From Magnetococcales bacterium (GTDB taxonomy: Bacteria; Pseudomonadota; Magnetococcia; Magnetococcales; JADGCH01), in the NCBI GenBank assembly GCA_015229115.1, contig JADGCH010000003.1:40189-104188 (forward strand): a stretch of 64,000 nt of DNA. Reading direction: 5' to 3'. The notes beneath the pieces are model-generated. The model was not told the origin of the DNA and searched no databases. It saw nothing but the letters and a program-made list of their open reading frames with translations. Numbering within the stretch: the first letter of the stretch is position 1; every line of letters begins with the position of its first letter. Positions 26,195 to 62,942 of this stretch are shown one piece after another. A program made the position numbers and the translations under genes.

Positions 26195-26485
26195 ATGGAC
26201 CTGAAACAGCTTCACATACGCGATTTCCGCAATATCGTTCATGCTGAGCTGACGTTTGATCCCACCCTCAATCTGATCACCGGCAGTAACGGCCAGGGTA
26301 AGAGCAATCTGCTCGAAGCCATTGGCCTGCTGAGCACCGGACGCTCGTTCCGCCATGCGACAGCTGGTCATATGCGACGTCACAATCAACCCTGGTTTTG
26401 TCTCAATGGCCAGGATCCCAGGGAGTTTTCACCATCGCATTCGTGCGAAGTATGTGGTGTTACAGACTGGAAGGAGCGCGACTGA
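26195..26485 (+). pseudogene. recF: Truncated recF 5' copy (about 73 RecF-like codons, then unrelated sequence)
   Basis: MDLKQLHIRDFRNIVHAELTFDPTLNLITGSNGQGKSNLLEAIGLLSTGRSFRH matches the full recF at 35430, then diverges at 26415. Confidence 0.92.
26222..26414 (+). repeat. 193-bp direct repeat, left copy (recF 5' region)
   Basis: Aligned by eye with 35457-35649; single mismatch seen (26360 A versus 35595 G); offset 9235. Confidence 0.95.
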
Positions 26486-26666
26486 GAAGGTGAATCGGGT
26501 AAAGGGTTCTTGACGCCGATTCTGGTCAGGCTGAAGAGCGGGCGTTCACCCAAGCTCCATACGAAAAAGCCGACCTGGTGAAATCGGTGCAGGTCAACGA
26601 TCTGGTAGGCGTCGTTTGCTGGACGAGCTGTTTAGCCGTTAACTGTTACCTCAAGGAATAGCCCGA

Positions 26667-27695
26667 ATGCAACTGGCACCTCAAGACCATGATGGCTTCT
26701 TCAAGGTATGGATTGATGACAACGGCACCCTTCGTATCCTGTTGCAACACTGGTTGCCTGCACCTTTGTACCAGGCAGTTGACCTAACTGTCGATCCGGA
26801 AGTGCTCAAGGTCAACTACGCCGGTCTTTACCACGGGCCATCCTGTGCCGATTTCCTCATCCGGCTCAAGAGCACCGATGGCATGCCGTTGCATGTTTAC
26901 GTGTTGTTTGAACACAAAAGCCATTTTGACCGTAACACACCGATGCAGTTTCTCATCTACCAGGGTGAGGAGCTGCGCGCCATCTTTACCCAGCAGGGTG
27001 AAAAGGGGCCTTTGCCCGCCATCTTTTGCATGGTTGTCTACCATGGTCCAGAACAATGGTCCATGCCATCATTCTTCCACACTATGTATGGCAACATATC
27101 GGCTGAGTTGCGTTCCTATGTGCTTGACTTTCCCTATCAACTTCTGAACCTGCAACAGATCCCTGATCAGGAGATCCTGCAACTTCCGGTACGCACCAGC
27201 AGTGGTCTCATGGCACTCAAATATGCTTTTTCTCCAGAAAGCCAGCAACGGGAGATAATCCTGTTGACCCTTGACCAGATTGCAGCAGACAGAGTGATCA
27301 GCTCTAGCTACCTGTTGCAGCTGGTACGTTACTGGATGGAAAAATACACCGGCTTCGATCCACAGCTGGCTGATCGTGTCGCCACCAAACTACACCATTC
27401 TGCGGAGGTTGAAACCATGTTGTCCAATTTTGCCCAAACTTATCTGGATAAGGGACGCCAGGAAGGCGAACAAAAAGGTCGCCAGGAAGGCGAACAAAAA
27501 GGTCGCCAGGAAGGCGAACAAAAAGGTCGCCAGGAAGGCCGCATCTCTCTACTGCTACATCTGACACAGCGCCGCTTTGGAACTCTGCCTACATGGACCT
27601 TGGAAAAAGTGATTGGTGCTGATTCTGCTCAAATTGACCTCTGGAGCGACCGCATCCTCGATGCCCGCTCACTGGAAGAATTGTTTAACCATTGA
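26667..27695 (+). CDS. Rpn-family (YhgA-like/PF04754) recombination-promoting PD-(D/E)XK nuclease with DUF4351-like C-terminus
   Basis: DHDGFFKVW N-terminus, CADFLIRL...VYVLFEHKSHFD (D...ExK), GRQEGEQK repeats, LLLHLTQRRFGTLP...LEELF tail. Confidence 0.85.
   Translation: MQLAPQDHDGFFKVWIDDNGTLRILLQHWLPAPLYQAVDLTVDPEVLKVNYAGLYHGPSCADFLIRLKSTDGMPLHVYVLFEHKSHFDRNTPMQFLIYQGEELRAIFTQQGEKGPLPAIFCMVVYHGPEQWSMPSFFHTMYGNISAELRSYVLDFPYQLLNLQQIPDQEILQLPVRTSSGLMALKYAFSPESQQREIILLTLDQIAADRVISSSYLLQLVRYWMEKYTGFDPQLADRVATKLHHSAEVETMLSNFAQTYLDKGRQEGEQKGRQEGEQKGRQEGEQKGRQEGRISLLLHLTQRRFGTLPTWTLEKVIGADSAQIDLWSDRILDARSLEELFNH
27417..27695 (+). CDS. Predicted in-frame intragenic RpnS-type C-terminal protein (92 aa)
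   Basis: In-frame ATG (codon 251 of the Rpn gene) preceded by GGAGG (27404-27408) with an 8-nt spacer. Confidence 0.5.
   Translation: MLSNFAQTYLDKGRQEGEQKGRQEGEQKGRQEGEQKGRQEGRISLLLHLTQRRFGTLPTWTLEKVIGADSAQIDLWSDRILDARSLEELFNH
27453..27539 (+). repeat. 24-bp in-frame tandem repeat (3 full units plus partial) encoding GRQEGEQK
   Basis: ggtcgccaggaaggcgaacaaaaa repeated at 27453, 27477, 27501, partial from 27525. Confidence 0.97.
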
Positions 27696-27703
27696 TCATC
27701 AGG

Positions 27704-27752
27704 ACCCCACCTCCTTCCCCCCTCGCCCGAAGGGAGAGGGGCCGGGGGTGAG
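27704..27752. repeat. REP-like GC-rich palindrome (CCCTCnCCC/GGGAGAGGG core, GGGGTGAG arm)
   Basis: accccacctccttccccccctcgcccgaagggagaggggccgggggtgag; resembles elements at 61341 and 61795. Confidence 0.75.
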
Positions 27753-27772
27753 AGCTTCATTAAGGAGTTCCC

Positions 27773-30700
27773 ATGGCCACCTATTCCATCTCCTTCGCCC
27801 CCGCCGTCAACCATGCTGTTGGTGGTCCCCCTGTTGCTATCGCCAGTACCGATGTCAACGGTGATGGCAACATTGATCTGGTCGCCGGTTTGAGCGGTGG
27901 AACCGCTTCGCTGCTGCCCGGTGATGGCAGGGGTGGTTTTGCCCCGGCCAGCGATTATACCGGTCATTGGCCCCAATCGATCAACAGGGCTGATTTCGAT
28001 GGCGACGGCAGCATCGATCTCGTTAACGTCAGCTTTAGCGACGATCGTGTCTTGTTGCTATTTGGTGACGGCACAGGCCATTTCGCTCCTGCTATCCACT
28101 ATACCGTTGGGGACGGCCCCATCGCAGTCACCACGGCTGACTTCAACGGCGATGGTAAAATTGATATCGCCTGCGCCAATTTTTTAAACAATAACATCTC
28201 ATTGCTGCTGAACAACACCCCTCCAGCGGCCCCGACCGGTCTTGATCTCGATGCTGCCGATGACCTGGGTGGTTCCAACAGTGACAACATCACCCGACAG
28301 ACCAGCTCCTTGACCATCATGGGCAGCAGCGGTGTGGTCGGTGCCAACATCGTGCTGTTTGACGATCAGGATAACGATGGGCTGATAGATAGCGGTGAGG
28401 CGTTGGTAACCACCGATGTCACGGCGGCAGACTGGAGCGTTGATATCAACTTGACGGCTGGTACCCATGCGATCAGGGCTATTCAGGTCGATGCGATGGG
28501 CAGCAGCAGCCGTGCCTCGCAGCCCATGACTATCATGATTCCCACCACCAACCGTGCCCCTACCGTTAGTGGGTTGAGCCGGAGTATGGATGAAGATAAC
28601 TACTCTCCGCTTGATTTGACCTTTGCTGACTTTAAGGCCCAGTTTAACGATTCAGACGGCGATGAGTTGAGCAGCATTAAAATCACTAGATTACCGAGTT
28701 ATGGCGCACTGCGGTGGTACAACGGCGATGCGATCACAGCGATCACACTCAACCAGGAGATCGCAATTTCCGGTATCGAATATGTTCCTCATGCCAATTG
28801 GCATGGCCACGACAACTTTAGCTGGAGTGGTAGCGACGGCCAACTTGATGCCACCCATTCAGCTACGGTAGACATTACCGTCAAACCGGTCGGTGATACG
28901 CCAGCCCTGACTAACTTCAGCAAAACTGGTCCGCGCAATCGCGCCATCCCCTTTACAGGGCATGATTTTATCGGCCAATTTAGCGACGTCGATGGCGATA
29001 GCCTAGCCAGGATCAGGATCACCCAATTGCCTGATAGTGGCAGCCTTACATTGGCTGGTGTTGCTGTCACCATCAATCAAGAGGTCGCTGGCAGCCATAT
29101 TGGCGACTTGGTATTTACACCCGTGGCTGAGTGGGAAGGCTTGGTCAGTTGGCGGTGGCAAGGCTTCGATGGTGTGAATTGGAGCCACGACGCTACGATC
29201 TATTTGGCCGTCGGTACTTACACAAAGCCAGTTCTGTTCGAACCTTTCTTCATTACCAGCTACGTTACTGGTAGCCCTCAAGCAGTTGTCGGTGCCGACT
29301 TCAATAACGATGGTAAAGCCGATATCGCTTGCGCTAATACAGGGAGTGATGGCGTCTCGCTACTATTCGGAGATGGCTTGGGAGGCCTAACTATCGTCCG
29401 TCACTACGCTGTTGGCATCAGACCTCGATCAATAATCAGTGCTGACTTCAACAACGATGGCAAAGCTGATATCGCCTGCGCTAATGCAGGGAGTGATGAC
29501 GTCTCTGTGTTGCTTGGAGATGGTCAAGGAGGTTTGACCAATGCCCACAATTACGCCACCGGTAGTCTACCTTACTCAGTTGGCAGCAGTGACTTCAACG
29601 GCGATGGTAAAGCCGATCTCATTTGCGCTAATGGGGACGACAGCAACATTTCCGTACTACTCGGGGATGGACAAGGTGGCTTCTCTGATGCCAGCAACTA
29701 TGCTGTCGGTGTATCCCCTCGCTCAGTCACCGTTGCTGATTTCAATGGTGACAACAAGGCCGATATCGTATGCGCCAATGCGACAAGTGATGATATCTCG
29801 ATACTACTTGGGAATGGTCAAGGCGGCTTCGCTAACGCCAGTAGCTACGCCATTGGTGGTACTCCTTTTTCGGTCACTAGTGCCGATTTTAATAGTGATG
29901 GTAAAGCCGATATTGTTTGTACCAGTTCTTATAAGGATGAGGTCTTACTGCTCCTTGGGGATGGTCAGGGTGGCTTTGCTGTTCCCCGTGGTTATGCTGT
30001 CGGCGACTTTCCTGGGTCGGTCATCAGCGCTGACTTCAACAGCGATGGTAGAGCTGATGTCTTCTGTGTGAATGAAGGGAGTGATGATGGCGCACTGCTT
30101 CTTGGGGATGGTCAGGGTGGCTTTGCTGTCATCCATCGTTATGTTGTTGGTGATTGGCCTCAATCAGCCAGCAGTGCCGATTTTAACAGTGATGGCTTAA
30201 CCGATATCGTTGTCGCCACCAACCAGAGGAGTGAGGAAATCTCACTGTTACTCAGTGGTGCTTTGGATTTGGATACTGACAGTGATAGTGGTCCCTCCGA
30301 TCACGATAATATCACCCATCGTACTAGTGGGCTAACTCTTAGAGGGGTTGGTACATCCGGAACAACATTGGTGTTGTTTGATGACAGAAATCATAGTAAT
30401 CGAGTCGATATTGGGGAAGTTTTGGCAACCAATCACGTGACCGGAACGGTGTGGCAGAGTGATGTATCCTTGGCCCCAGGAACCCATGCTATTCGGTTTA
30501 TCGAAACTGATGGATCGAGTAATCATGTGCCGTCATCCATGTTGATGGTCACGGTTGATACCACGATCACAACGCCAACAGATCTTGACTTAGCGGACGA
30601 AAGTGACGACGGCTTTGCCAATAGCGACAATATCACTAGCCACAGGGTTGTTACCATCAGCGGTAGTGGGGGTGAAGTGGGTGCTACGTTACTGTTATTT

Positions 30701-33700
30701 GATAACAGAAATAGCAATAACATTCCTGATTTCAGAGAATATTTAACAACCATCCAGTTGGCTACTACCAGCTGGACCACCTCCATTGACCTGACACCCA
30801 ACACCAACCATGAGATCAGGGCCATACAGACTGATACAGCCGGCAACCGCAGTGAAGTTTCATTGCCGTTGATGATTGTATCGGTCAGTTCGATCCCGGC
30901 TAATTTTGCTGCTACCCGCGATTATGCAGTCGGCAGCTATCCTGTGTCAGTCACGAGTGCTGACTTCAACAGTGATGGAAAAATTGACATTGCCTGCGTT
31001 AACGCTGGCGAAGATGAAGTTTCATTGCTGCTCGGTGATGGTCAAGGCGGATTTTCTGATGCACGGAGCTATTCCGTTGATGAGTGGCCAATTTCAATAA
31101 CTAGTGCTGACTTGAACGGCGATGGCAAAACCGATATTGTCTGCGCTAATGAGGATGATGGTAACGTCTCGCTGTTGCTTGGCGACGGCCAAGGTGGGTT
31201 CGCTGACGTTGTCAGCTATGACGTCGGTTCCTTGCCTCAATCGGTCATCAGTGCTGATTTCAATGGCGATGGTAAAATGGATATCGCTTGTGCTGATTCG
31301 GGTGACTATGGTGTCTCGGTACTGCTCGGTGATGGCCAAGGGGGACTAGCGGATGCTATCGACTTTGTCGTTGGCCATAAGCCTCTGTCCATCACCAGTG
31401 CCGATTTTAACGGCGATGGTAAAATCGACATCGCTTGTGCTAACGCAAACAGTGACAATGTTTCGCTGCTGTTCGGTGATGGCCAAGGAGGCTTCTCTGC
31501 TATTCGCAACTACGCCGTTGGTGACGCCCCCGTCTCAATCACCGTTGCTGACTTCAATATCGATGGTAAAACTGACATTGTTTGTGCTAATGCGAGCAGT
31601 AATAGTGTGTCGTTACTGCTCGGTGATGGTCAGGGGGGCTTCATTCCCGCCCGTAACTACGCCGTCGGTAGATCCCCACAGTCAGTCATCAGTGTCGACT
31701 TTAACGGAGACGGTAGCAGTGATATTGTTTGCTCTAACCTAGATGATGATAACGTGTCTCTGTTGCTTGGGGATGGCCAGGGAGGATTTGCTGATGCCCA
31801 CAACTACATCACTGGTAGTGGTGCTTACTCAGTTGCCAGTGCTGATTTCAACGGCGATGGTACCAATGACATTGTCTGTGCGAACGGGTACGATGATAAC
31901 GTCTCGGTATTGCTAGGGGTGCCTTTACATTTGGTCGCTGACGATGATGGTGGCTCTTTCAATGACGACAACATTACCCGTCAGACCAGAGGCTTAACCT
32001 TTCGTGGCCGTATCAACCACAGTGACAAGAGTGTGACCCTCTTTGACGACATCAACGGCAACGATAGCGTTGATGAAGGCGAAGTATGGGCAACCACTGC
32101 TGTGGTTAATGGGGAGTGGGCGGTGGATGTGTCGCTATCGGCTGGACCACATGCCGTCAAGAGTGTCTCCGCTGGTGCTGTGTCACCGCCCTTGGCGCTT
32201 TTGGTGGATACGGTGGCACCAGAGGTTACCATTCCATTAGCCGACACCACCGTCAGTCAACTATCTCCCACCCTCACTGGTTCGATAGCCGATGACAGCG
32301 CCTGTACTCTTGCATTGCGGGTGTTTGACCAGACCAGCCAATGTTACCTGGTACGTCAAAACGGTCAATGGCGTGTTAGCACGGCCGATCATGCCTGGAC
32401 CTCCGTGGTGGCCACCGATACAGCCGATTGGCAAAATTGGAGTATCAAAGCTGATGAAGCATGGGCCTACAATCACGTCTATCAGCTGACCACCCGGGCG
32501 GTTGACCGGGCTGGTAATGAGCGTGTGCAGCAGTTCAATTTGGGCTATGGTGAAAAGATCGCCACCAGGATTGAGCTGGCCCAATCGCTTTATGCCATCA
32601 ATCCAGAGCAGAGCATCACCCTGCAAGGTCAGTTGTTGCGCCAGGATGGCAAGGTGTGGGGCCGAGATCTTTCCGGCCAGAGCGTGCGGATGCAAGTCAC
32701 TGCTCCCGATGGTGAGGTCACCACTGTCGCCACCACTGCTGATATCGATGGTCGGTTTCGTTTTGCCGATCTGACTGGATTGAGCCAGAAAGGCAACTAC
32801 AAGTTACAAGTCTCTACAGAAGATGACCTGATCGTCGGCGGAGCTTCCAGCTTTGCCGATGTGCGGGTTGGGCCACCGGTCGGTTATGTCATTTTGGTAC
32901 AGGGGCTGTTGCAGACTGGATCTGGTGCACCTGAGGGGTTATTAGCTCATAAGCGTAGCACCAATCGCATCTATCAGACGCTGCTGCGGCGTGGCTTTAC
33001 GGCGGATAACATTCGCTACCTCAACGCCGATACCGCTGCTTTGGGACCCAATCCCGATGCCGGCAAGATCGCTGATTACCGCAACCTGCTGGGTGTTCCG
33101 GCTGGTTCGATGTTTAACACCGACTTCTTGCCAACTCGCGACAACATACGGGCGGCCATTGAGACCTGGGCCTATGACAAAATGACCGGAGCGGCGGCAC
33201 CGCTTTATCTGGTCATGGTCGATCATGGCAGCCCGGAGACGCTCTATATTGGTAAGGATAACAGCGATGGTCGGGTGACGTCGACGGACCTGGCCAACTG
33301 GCTCAATCGGCTTGATAGCAAACTGGCCTCGACAGCTGTGGGCAATGCTGGCAAGCTGGCCTTGAAAGAGGATCAGACGGTCATTCTTGGTTCGTGCTAC
33401 TCGGGCAGTTTTATGGATGATCTCTCCCGGGACGAGGTCAACAACAAGAATCGCATGGTCATCACCAGTGCTACTGCCAAGGAGAAGTCCTATCGCGGAG
33501 CGACCGAGTCGGACGGCATCCAGGATGGTGAGCTGTTTTTGCAGCATCTGTTTCAAGCCTTGGGACGGGGCAAGACCTTTTACGAGGCCTTTACCGATGC
33601 TACACGCCTGACGGAGAACACGCCGGGTATTGCCAACAACGTGAGCAATGCCAAGGATAACACCAAGCAGGAGCGCATGATCAGCAAGATCAACGACAAC

Positions 33701-35419
33701 TCTGGCCAGCATCCTCTGTTGGAGGATAACGGTGATAAGATCGGTAGCAATGCCTTGTCAACACAAAGCAGCCAGGATGGAGCCGTGGCTAAAGACAGGG
33801 TATTGGGCATGACGCTGGCTAGTCTGAGCAACTCGCTGGAACATCAGGCACAGGTGGCCGCCGTGGCACCGACGGTCTATGACATCGGCACGGCCACCAC
33901 AACGCTGCTGTGGGCCAGGGATAACAGCTTGACGGCAACACCCAACGCTGGGGCGGCCTGGGTGACGATGATGGGGCCCGGAACACAGCAGGCGTCGAGC
34001 AGTGGCAACTTCCAGATCAGTCTTGACTTGCCTACCGGTAGCCTGAATTATAACGCCGAACAGCGGCGATGGGAGATCGACAGCAAGGCTATCAGCGGTT
34101 TTACTGGCTTCACCCTGCCGGGACGTTACCAGCTGCAATATACCGTGCGTGATACCGAGACTGGCGAGGTGTCAACACCGGTGATGGGCAATGTCTATAA
34201 GGGCAAGAGCGGCAACCGCGCCCCGGGCACGATAACGCTGCAGGCCCCGTCAGCCACTGGTCAGGTCAGCCGCATTGGTCTGTTCAACTGGAGCGATGCT
34301 ATTGACCCCGATGGGGATGCTGTTAGTTATAACCTGGTTGTCACCTCAGACCAGGCCAGTAGCACGGTGGTCTATCGACAAGAGAATCTGGAACTGTCGC
34401 AGGCCCTGGTTGATTTTAAGGGTCTGTTGGAGCAGGGTAACTACTGGTGGCAGGTCGAGGCGGTCGATTTTTATGGAAAACTGACGACCAGTGCCAACAG
34501 GGCGTTCAGTCTGACCTTCCAGAACGATATTCCGGCGGTGTTGCAGGGGGTGGTCTATAGCAATCAGGATTACAGCGCTATTACCGGAGCGACCATCAAG
34601 CTCAATGGCCAAGTGATCAGCAGCAGCGAGAGCAACGGTAGCTTGGCGGCGTTGATCGCCGCTAGCAGTGGCACTTTGACCATCGAGAAAGCGGGTTATC
34701 AGACCAAAACAGTGCCATTGGACAAGGTTGATAAGGGTTCTGTCAACCAGATGGTGTTTGGTCTGGACGGTGGCACGGCATCGGTGGGGGTGCGTTACAA
34801 GCTCAATGGTGGTAAGGAGACCACGGCTGCCTCGGTGGTGGGCACCAGCAAGACCGATACTGTGACGTTGCTGAGCGATGGTAAAGTGACGATCAAGGCT
34901 GTTGAAAGCGTGGTCGGTAGCGGCGGCACCGATACCATCACCCTGGCCACGGCTGGTACGGTCGTGGTCGTTGACGTTGAAACGGTGATCGGTTCCGGTG
35001 GGGCCGATACCATCATCCTCAGCAGTAGCAACACCACGCCGGTGATCCTGATCGGCGGTGGTGGGGCGGATAAACTCACCGGTAGCGGCGGTGCCAGAAC
35101 GACGTTTCGTTATACCAGCGCTGCCGAGACATCGCCGACGGTGAAGGACACCGTCACCAATTTCGCCGCCAACCTCGATGTCATCGAGATTCTGGCCAGT
35201 CTGCGCAAGGGTAGCTGGAGCGACAGCAGCGCATTCATTGGCTCAACCACTTTTAACGGCAAGGGGGCCTGCCAGATCCGCTTCGATGACAAGAGCAAGC
35301 TGTTGCAGATTGATCTTGATGGTAAAGGCGACAAGAAGGCCGAGATGGCCTTGACCCTGACGGGGGTCAAGCTGGCCGATCTGCAGGCCAATCGTGGTTG
35401 GCTGAGCTGGAGTGGGTGA
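27773..35419 (+). CDS. Giant (2548 aa) FG-GAP/VCBS-repeat protein with cadherin-like region, clan CD (C13/caspase-like) peptidase-like domain and RTX/T1SS-like C-terminus
   Basis: About 17 DxNxDGxxDI repeats; VMVDHGS (H1818) and VILGSCYSGSF (C1875); C-terminal GGGGADKLTG...VTNFAANLDVIEI. Confidence 0.88.
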   Translation: MATYSISFAPAVNHAVGGPPVAIASTDVNGDGNIDLVAGLSGGTASLLPGDGRGGFAPASDYTGHWPQSINRADFDGDGSIDLVNVSFSDDRVLLLFGDGTGHFAPAIHYTVGDGPIAVTTADFNGDGKIDIACANFLNNNISLLLNNTPPAAPTGLDLDAADDLGGSNSDNITRQTSSLTIMGSSGVVGANIVLFDDQDNDGLIDSGEALVTTDVTAADWSVDINLTAGTHAIRAIQVDAMGSSSRASQPMTIMIPTTNRAPTVSGLSRSMDEDNYSPLDLTFADFKAQFNDSDGDELSSIKITRLPSYGALRWYNGDAITAITLNQEIAISGIEYVPHANWHGHDNFSWSGSDGQLDATHSATVDITVKPVGDTPALTNFSKTGPRNRAIPFTGHDFIGQFSDVDGDSLARIRITQLPDSGSLTLAGVAVTINQEVAGSHIGDLVFTPVAEWEGLVSWRWQGFDGVNWSHDATIYLAVGTYTKPVLFEPFFITSYVTGSPQAVVGADFNNDGKADIACANTGSDGVSLLFGDGLGGLTIVRHYAVGIRPRSIISADFNNDGKADIACANAGSDDVSVLLGDGQGGLTNAHNYATGSLPYSVGSSDFNGDGKADLICANGDDSNISVLLGDGQGGFSDASNYAVGVSPRSVTVADFNGDNKADIVCANATSDDISILLGNGQGGFANASSYAIGGTPFSVTSADFNSDGKADIVCTSSYKDEVLLLLGDGQGGFAVPRGYAVGDFPGSVISADFNSDGRADVFCVNEGSDDGALLLGDGQGGFAVIHRYVVGDWPQSASSADFNSDGLTDIVVATNQRSEEISLLLSGALDLDTDSDSGPSDHDNITHRTSGLTLRGVGTSGTTLVLFDDRNHSNRVDIGEVLATNHVTGTVWQSDVSLAPGTHAIRFIETDGSSNHVPSSMLMVTVDTTITTPTDLDLADESDDGFANSDNITSHRVVTISGSGGEVGATLLLFDNRNSNNIPDFREYLTTIQLATTSWTTSIDLTPNTNHEIRAIQTDTAGNRSEVSLPLMIVSVSSIPANFAATRDYAVGSYPVSVTSADFNSDGKIDIACVNAGEDEVSLLLGDGQGGFSDARSYSVDEWPISITSADLNGDGKTDIVCANEDDGNVSLLLGDGQGGFADVVSYDVGSLPQSVISADFNGDGKMDIACADSGDYGVSVLLGDGQGGLADAIDFVVGHKPLSITSADFNGDGKIDIACANANSDNVSLLFGDGQGGFSAIRNYAVGDAPVSITVADFNIDGKTDIVCANASSNSVSLLLGDGQGGFIPARNYAVGRSPQSVISVDFNGDGSSDIVCSNLDDDNVSLLLGDGQGGFADAHNYITGSGAYSVASADFNGDGTNDIVCANGYDDNVSVLLGVPLHLVADDDGGSFNDDNITRQTRGLTFRGRINHSDKSVTLFDDINGNDSVDEGEVWATTAVVNGEWAVDVSLSAGPHAVKSVSAGAVSPPLALLVDTVAPEVTIPLADTTVSQLSPTLTGSIADDSACTLALRVFDQTSQCYLVRQNGQWRVSTADHAWTSVVATDTADWQNWSIKADEAWAYNHVYQLTTRAVDRAGNERVQQFNLGYGEKIATRIELAQSLYAINPEQSITLQGQLLRQDGKVWGRDLSGQSVRMQVTAPDGEVTTVATTADIDGRFRFADLTGLSQKGNYKLQVSTEDDLIVGGASSFADVRVGPPVGYVILVQGLLQTGSGAPEGLLAHKRSTNRIYQTLLRRGFTADNIRYLNADTAALGPNPDAGKIADYRNLLGVPAGSMFNTDFLPTRDNIRAAIETWAYDKMTGAAAPLYLVMVDHGSPETLYIGKDNSDGRVTSTDLANWLNRLDSKLASTAVGNAGKLALKEDQTVILGSCYSGSFMDDLSRDEVNNKNRMVITSATAKEKSYRGATESDGIQDGELFLQHLFQALGRGKTFYEAFTDATRLTENTPGIANNVSNAKDNTKQERMISKINDNSGQHPLLEDNGDKIGSNALSTQSSQDGAVAKDRVLGMTLASLSNSLEHQAQVAAVAPTVYDIGTATTTLLWARDNSLTATPNAGAAWVTMMGPGTQQASSSGNFQISLDLPTGSLNYNAEQRRWEIDSKAISGFTGFTLPGRYQLQYTVRDTETGEVSTPVMGNVYKGKSGNRAPGTITLQAPSATGQVSRIGLFNWSDAIDPDGDAVSYNLVVTSDQASSTVVYRQENLELSQALVDFKGLLEQGNYWWQVEAVDFYGKLTTSANRAFSLTFQNDIPAVLQGVVYSNQDYSAITGATIKLNGQVISSSESNGSLAALIAASSGTLTIEKAGYQTKTVPLDKVDKGSVNQMVFGLDGGTASVGVRYKLNGGKETTAASVVGTSKTDTVTLLSDGKVTIKAVESVVGSGGTDTITLATAGTVVVVDVETVIGSGGADTIILSSSNTTPVILIGGGGADKLTGSGGARTTFRYTSAAETSPTVKDTVTNFAANLDVIEILASLRKGSWSDSSAFIGSTTFNGKGACQIRFDDKSKLLQIDLDGKGDKKAEMALTLTGVKLADLQANRGWLSWSG
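29270..31920 (+). repeat. Two blocks of about seven FG-GAP repeats each (about 180-bp period), at about 29270-30250 and 30900-31920
   Basis: Recurring ADFNGDGKADIVCAN...VSLLLGDGQGGF units in translation. Confidence 0.88.
32880..33640 (+). other. Clan CD cysteine peptidase-like domain within the giant protein (approximate bounds)
   Basis: GYVILVQGLL...PLYLVMVDHGSPETLYI...KEDQTVILGSCYSGSFMDDLS...FLQHLFQALGRGKTFYEAF. Confidence 0.75.
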
Positions 35420-35429
35420 TGGAGACCCC

Positions 35430-39482
<4,053 letters not shown>

Positions 39483-62660: not shown

Positions 62661-62942
62661 ATGCCTTATGTCAGCAGTGTCGAGCGTATCGGTATAGAAA
62701 AGGGGATTTTTATCGGAGAACAGAGGGGAGAGCAAAGAGGAGAGCAAAGAGGAGAGCAAAGAGGTCTCCACAGAGGGCAGGCCAGTATGTTGCTGCGTCT
62801 GATACAACGTCGCTTTGGCCCCATACCGGACCAGATCCATGACCTGGTTATGCAGGCCAGCTCTGACCAGATGGAGCAATGGGGCGATCGTCTGCTGGAA
62901 GCATCCTCCCTTGAGGCTTTATTCGACAACGCAATGGGGTAG
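62661..62942 (+). CDS. Stand-alone RpnS-like protein (C-terminal DUF4351-like part of an Rpn protein, no nuclease domain)
   Basis: MPYVSSVERIGIEKG(GEQR repeats)...MLLRLIQRRFGPIP...DRLLEASSLEALFD aligns with the C-terminus of the Rpn gene at 27417-27695; strong SD AGAGGAG at 62646. Confidence 0.85.
   Translation: MPYVSSVERIGIEKGIFIGEQRGEQRGEQRGEQRGLHRGQASMLLRLIQRRFGPIPDQIHDLVMQASSDQMEQWGDRLLEASSLEALFDNAMG
62715..62762 (+). repeat. 12-bp in-frame tandem repeat (4 units) encoding GEQR
   Basis: ggagaacagagg then ggagagcaaaga x3. Confidence 0.96.

Follow-up and report, generated by a model that had tools for sequence, protein, structure and literature searches.

The rpn gene at 26667–27695 raises the question whether a single reading frame can supply both a nuclease and the protein that restrains it. 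We consider, with a probability of about 0.87, that this gene is an Rpn toxin–antitoxin gene-within-gene, specifying a putative nuclease and, from an internal start, its candidate antitoxin; this reading draws on comparison of sequences and on analogy with Escherichia coli, in which five rpn genes all make the small product RpnS, which blocks the full-length RpnL where tested (Zhong et al., 2023; PMC10327210). In the mechanism that we propose, the ATG at 27417, served by GGAGG, would start a second product of 92 aa consisting of a repeat-bearing helix and DUF4351. Through this helix the RpnS-like protein would bind its counterpart in the full-length protein and thereby keep the nuclease switched off; the number of repeats would set which partners match, and on separation of the two, as might happen when a phage infects the cell, the nuclease would become active. 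The production of two proteins, toxicity, inhibition, dimerization through the helix and phage defence are all properties that we infer from E. coli.

The rpn gene and its predicted products

The features of the gene itself, within the window (the whole 64 kb stretch of DNA that was analysed), are as follows.

26667–27695, + strand: rpn gene, full-length RpnL-like product of 342 aa (PF04754, PF14261, dN/dS)
26850–26918, + strand: nuclease active-site region, D62 (CADFLI) to E82-H83-K84 (FEHKS) (conservation across 118 relatives)
27404–27408, + strand: internal Shine–Dalgarno sequence (SD), GGAGG (codon-level selection in relatives)
27417–27419, + strand: internal translation start, ATG (Met in 97/118 relatives, SD in 95/97)
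27417–27695, + strand: predicted RpnS-like protein of 92 aa, long helix plus DUF4351 (PF14261, E 4e-7; AlphaFold)
27456–27539, + strand: tandem repeat, 24 bp × 3.5, encoding GRQEGEQK, i.e. two four-residue units (TRF)

The ORF runs for 342 codons from an ATG start to a TGA stop. The preliminary description had proposed a search with PF04754 and PF14261, and both domains were matched in the product: PF04754 (Transposase_31, YhgA-like) on residues 6–174 (E 7e-23; 81.7 bits against a cut-off of 21) and PF14261 (DUF4351) on residues 285–341 (E 6e-6). The nuclease motif (D...ExK), which had been described as intact, is so, with D62, E82 and K84 present and near-invariant among 118 relatives (D62 in 117/118, E or D at the position of E82 in 117/118, and K84 in 108/118). 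These data support the view that the Rpn protein is whole and its nuclease motif preserved, and the full-length RpnL-like protein is a predicted PD-(D/E)XK DNA endonuclease, as judged from its sequence and its studied relatives. None of the PADLOC models matched the rpn product, and a structure of the full-length protein predicted from the single sequence was poor (pLDDT 51) and was not used.

For the 92-aa product, an AlphaFold model built from an alignment of two window sequences only had a mean pLDDT of 90, with a helix at residues 4–54 that holds all the repeats, followed by three short helices. The 24 bp tandem copies are exact, begin about 13 residues past the internal Met and lie inside this first helix, which agrees with the reported lengthening of the first helix of RpnS by repeats. 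The spacing between the internal Met and the RRF motif follows two series with steps of 4 aa (35, 39, 43, ... 67 and 32, 36, ... 64) in 75 of the 80 sequences in which they were measurable, and six closely similar paralogues of one relative genome (L063, L081, L097, L112, L122 and L128), which differ mainly in RQEG count, carry from about 1 to 5 RQEG units each. The variable four-residue repeats that the preliminary description cited for the helix of E. coli RpnS thus have a counterpart here, the repeats being in the first helix and the lengths stepping by 4 across relatives.

The closest known counterpart is the E. coli pair RpnA-L/RpnA-S. As in that pair, the large product has a PD-(D/E)XK nuclease domain at its N-terminus (25 % identity to RpnA, E 9e-11), an SD and ATG lie inside the gene at the corresponding site, and the first helix of the small product carries four-residue repeats. 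The internal start of RpnA, M244 with AAGGAG upstream, has been proven experimentally (PMC10327210); when RpnA was added to our alignment, M244 fell about one codon from the column of the 27417 start, an offset that is approximate since the alignment is short and gapped near M244. RpnA differs in having E-x-Q where E-x-K is found here, in the size of its small product (49 aa as against 92 aa), and in that its tail after the helix has no DUF4351 match, whereas the tail here is DUF4351. Moreover, a Foldseek fold search with the 92-aa model gave no match, not even to the RpnA-S structure 7TH0. Considering both the missing fold match and the RpnA tail that lacks DUF4351, the domains that follow the helix probably belong to different types. 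The proposal of an RpnL/RpnS pair is supported as regards the intact Rpn protein, the conserved internal start homologous to RpnA M244 and the repeats in the first helix of the C-terminal part.

An internal start need not produce an antitoxin. In Cas10d/Cas11d of type I-D CRISPR (cited in PMC10327210), one gene likewise gives two products through an internal start, but Cas11d helps the large product, whereas the RpnS-like protein here is expected to inhibit it. By this token the small product might be a structural partner or assembly subunit, and the sequence evidence, while it supports a second start, is silent on the effect of the product; the DUF4351 tail, moreover, has no detectable fold likeness to the RpnA-S crystal structure. 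We nevertheless regard such a role as improbable, since RpnS is produced by each of the nearest studied relatives, the five genes of E. coli, and blocks RpnL where tested, and since separate genes annotated DUF4351 are named as free-standing rpnS (PMC10327210).

The window copy and its surroundings

The dN/dS of the window copy against three same-genome paralogues is 0.08–0.16, values that are averages over both lineages, so that a very recent loss of constraint is possible; by this comparison we show that the gene is under purifying selection. Paralogue L002 was unusable for dN/dS, its synonymous sites being too divergent, and paralogues L003 and L005 run off at contig ends. In a further paralogue, L004 (1351–2187), residues 52–86 with the active site have been lost in frame and the C-terminus is disrupted; the internal SD and ATG are still intact despite the loss of the active site. 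Homology among the rpn paralogues begins just 5' of the start codon, a point that touches the question of terminal inverted repeats.

An insertion of roughly 9 kb, which parts dnaN from recF, contains the gene and is flanked by a duplicated part of recF.

26222–26414, + strand: duplicated recF 5' fragment (192/193 identical to 35457–35649 in intact recF)

The window thus holds recF twice, as a 5' fragment (26195–26485) adjoining dnaN and as an intact gene 9 kb further on (35430–36557). The two copies are 99.5 % identical over 193 bp, and the first 27 bp of their coding sequences differ, so that a simple target-site duplication does not account for them; the duplication suggests recombination or an assembly join, and an assembly error is a possible source of the insertion. 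Inserted along with rpn, at 27773–35419, is the gene for a 2548-residue protein with many FG-GAP repeats and with bacterial Ig, cadherin-like and Peptidase_C13 (legumain-like) domains. Among the 23 relatives in which both dnaN and recF were found, the gap between them is 6 to 73 bp in 21 and 286 and 394 bp in the other two, and none has rpn there. Since dnaN and recF adjoin in relatives and are parted by an insertion here, the 'replication gene cluster' in which the gene had been placed is an insertion site and the placement is incidental; any meaning of the position between dnaN and recF was rejected on the same ground, rpn being absent there in relatives.

The position of rpn in an insertion with a recF fragment at its edge, and the loss of the active site from paralogue L004, would fit a window copy that is a decaying remnant, insertion debris beside a broken recF, within a family that otherwise works as described. 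We hold this to be very unlikely: the frame is open, the motifs are intact, and dN/dS against close paralogues is in the range given above.

Copies are numerous in the source genome: the 26667–27695 protein has 36 matches there, and the domains PF04754 and PF14261 have 14 and 24. Matches were obtained in 43 of the 61 genomes searched, all in the order of the source genome and often at least 30 per genome. The genome contig set that was searched for related loci gave one distant relative, and the viral contig set gave none.

The internal start among relatives

As the preliminary description had it, GGAGG (27404–27408) is followed, after 8 nt, by the in-frame ATG at 27417, and the 92-aa C-terminal product predicted from that ATG carries the GRQEGEQK repeats. 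Pairing with the standard anti-SD (assumed for this genome) is predicted at −10.2 kcal/mol for the 27417 start against −4.9 kcal/mol for the gene's own start at 26667; good SD sites are present at several genes neighbouring rpn. GGAGG-N4–9-ATG occurs 13 times in the 64 kb window against 17.8 expected by chance, and the 27417 site taken alone is therefore at chance level within the window. The site had been called unusually good for an internal codon; this fails for the window, where there is no excess, and is upheld among relatives, where the arrangement is far above chance. A consensus scan of the + strand from 26400 to 27780, which includes the region upstream of 27417, found no sigma-70-like promoter; in the E. 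coli rpn genes, internal transcription starts are present.

Relatives were collected by whole-genome searches, and the alignment comprises 118 distinct ORFs covering the family, all of them from the order of the source genome except L031 (Candidatus Desulfobacula). At the column of 27417 the residue is Met in 97, Tyr in 13 and another in 8. An SD core, counted as GGAGG, AGGAG or GAGGA at the correct spacing, precedes 95 of the 97 Met codons and is found in 0/13 Tyr sequences; of the 585 further ATGs that lie in frame inside these genes, 12 have one (Fisher p ~1e-99 for 95/97 against 12/585, a value that ignores kinship among the sequences). With one sequence from each 70 %-identity cluster, the SD is present in 39/41 Met and 1/11 non-Met sequences (p 4e-8), and in 50 %-identity clusters in 7/9 Met sequences and 1/4 others. 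The two Met sequences that lack the exact core (L012 and L016) have GAAGGAG or GAGGGAG instead, about 8 nt upstream of the ATG.

The choice of codons bears on this arrangement more directly. The Glu at codon −4, which lies within the SD, is encoded by GAG in 93/93 Met-containing relatives (background 45 %), and the third base of codon −5 is G in 98 % of them (background 35 %), independently of whether that codon specifies Glu, Gln, Lys, Gly, Arg, Ala or Met. The Glu at codon −3, one codon past the SD core, is encoded by GAG in only 14/76. Such a pattern points to selection on the DNA and not on a protein motif. From these comparisons we show that the internal ribosome site and the start at 27417 are under selection, and that the internal start in rpn has been kept across the whole bacterial order.

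In divergent sequences SD and ATG move jointly. Of the eight sequences with neither Met nor Tyr at the 27417 column, seven have an ATG three codons downstream of it, preceded by GGAGG in six (−9.3 to −11.8 kcal/mol) and by AAGG in the seventh, L142 (−3.9 kcal/mol); the eighth, the Desulfobacula relative, has an ATG two codons downstream with AAAGGAGG (−11.4 kcal/mol). A second subfamily of the source genome, of the MPYVTS or MPSYVTS type, has an SD of −7.5 to −11.4 kcal/mol at the corresponding Met.

The 13 Tyr sequences (L048, L063, L064, L075, L078, L081, L097, L112, L116, L122, L123, L128 and L140) form a subfamily that serves as a natural control, since their D..EHK catalytic residues are intact and the usual internal start is missing, Met and SD both being absent there. 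Each of the 13 carries a Met at the position 18 codons upstream of the 27417 column, where 0/97 Met sequences have one; the purine-rich stretch before this upstream Met is weak (−5.6 to −7.8 kcal/mol). In this subfamily the start may perhaps have moved 18 codons upstream, or antitoxins from elsewhere may be relied on.

A further type of evidence comes from a C-terminal part that stands alone.

62661–62942, + strand: free-standing RpnS-like gene, DUF4351 only, 93 aa (PF14261, E 4e-10; own SD and ATG)

This small gene lies between parA (end 62603) and parB (start 62952). Its start region, TTA GAG GAG AAT AAA AAA ATG, has the LEE-SD-ATG arrangement of the full-length genes of its subfamily, and the codons upstream of it (LEENKK) correspond to those around the SD in full-length paralogues; it is of the MPYVSSVERIG type, a subfamily different from that of the 26667 gene. 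Like the free-standing DUF4351 rpnS genes (cf. ypaA/RpnE-S), it consists of the C-terminal part only and has an SD and ATG to itself; unlike them, it sits between the two par genes with no rpn gene nearby. A small gene between parA and parB was absent in 27/27 relatives in which both genes were found. It is therefore a recent arrival, and the notion that it belongs to the par operon as a conserved member was rejected. The retention of SD and ATG in this fragment supports the idea that the internal start can be used alone. Near a contig end in L027 (1500–1650) there is also a fragment that begins at the internal SD, continues through the ATG and repeats, and then passes into unrelated sequence.

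That GGAGG and ATG might be a by-product of a protein motif, P-x-E-E-x-x-M, with no second product, draws on the conservation of the residues E and M themselves and on a site that is by itself within chance for the window, but is rendered extremely improbable by GAG usage at the SD as against the adjacent codon, by a codon −5 that ends in G whatever it encodes, by the joint absence of Met and SD from the Tyr subfamily (0/13), by their joint shift in divergent subfamilies and by their retention in the free-standing copy.

Implications

The general principle of an internal antitoxin start in rpn has already been published (PMC10327210), and the occurrence of such a pair outside the enterobacteria, which had been pointed out for this gene, is not new: COG5464 is found in 34 bacterial phyla and RpnS has been described from Clostridium difficile, while 26 copies in one Bacillus genome, and generally the four-residue repeats and large copy numbers of the family, have been reported (Zhong et al., 2023; PMC10327210). 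The novelty of the locus is low on these grounds. What the present analysis contributes is a clean sequence test, in which codon choice at the internal ribosome site is set against that at adjacent codons, and by which the rpn internal start is seen to be under selection far from E. coli.

Finally, considering the dozens of Rpn copies per genome, the near-universal internal start and the free-standing antitoxin-like genes that come from other subfamilies, we tentatively suggest, as a possibility that is more doubtful than probable, that the many nuclease/antitoxin pairs of a cell may regulate one another in a network. The number of repeats would then decide which protein inhibits which, and the Tyr subfamily would be one that has lost the start at its usual place. 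How repeat number sets specificity was left open by Zhong et al. (2023; PMC10327210), and genomes that each contain dozens of paralogues differing in repeat number offer a natural experiment on toxin–antitoxin specificity.
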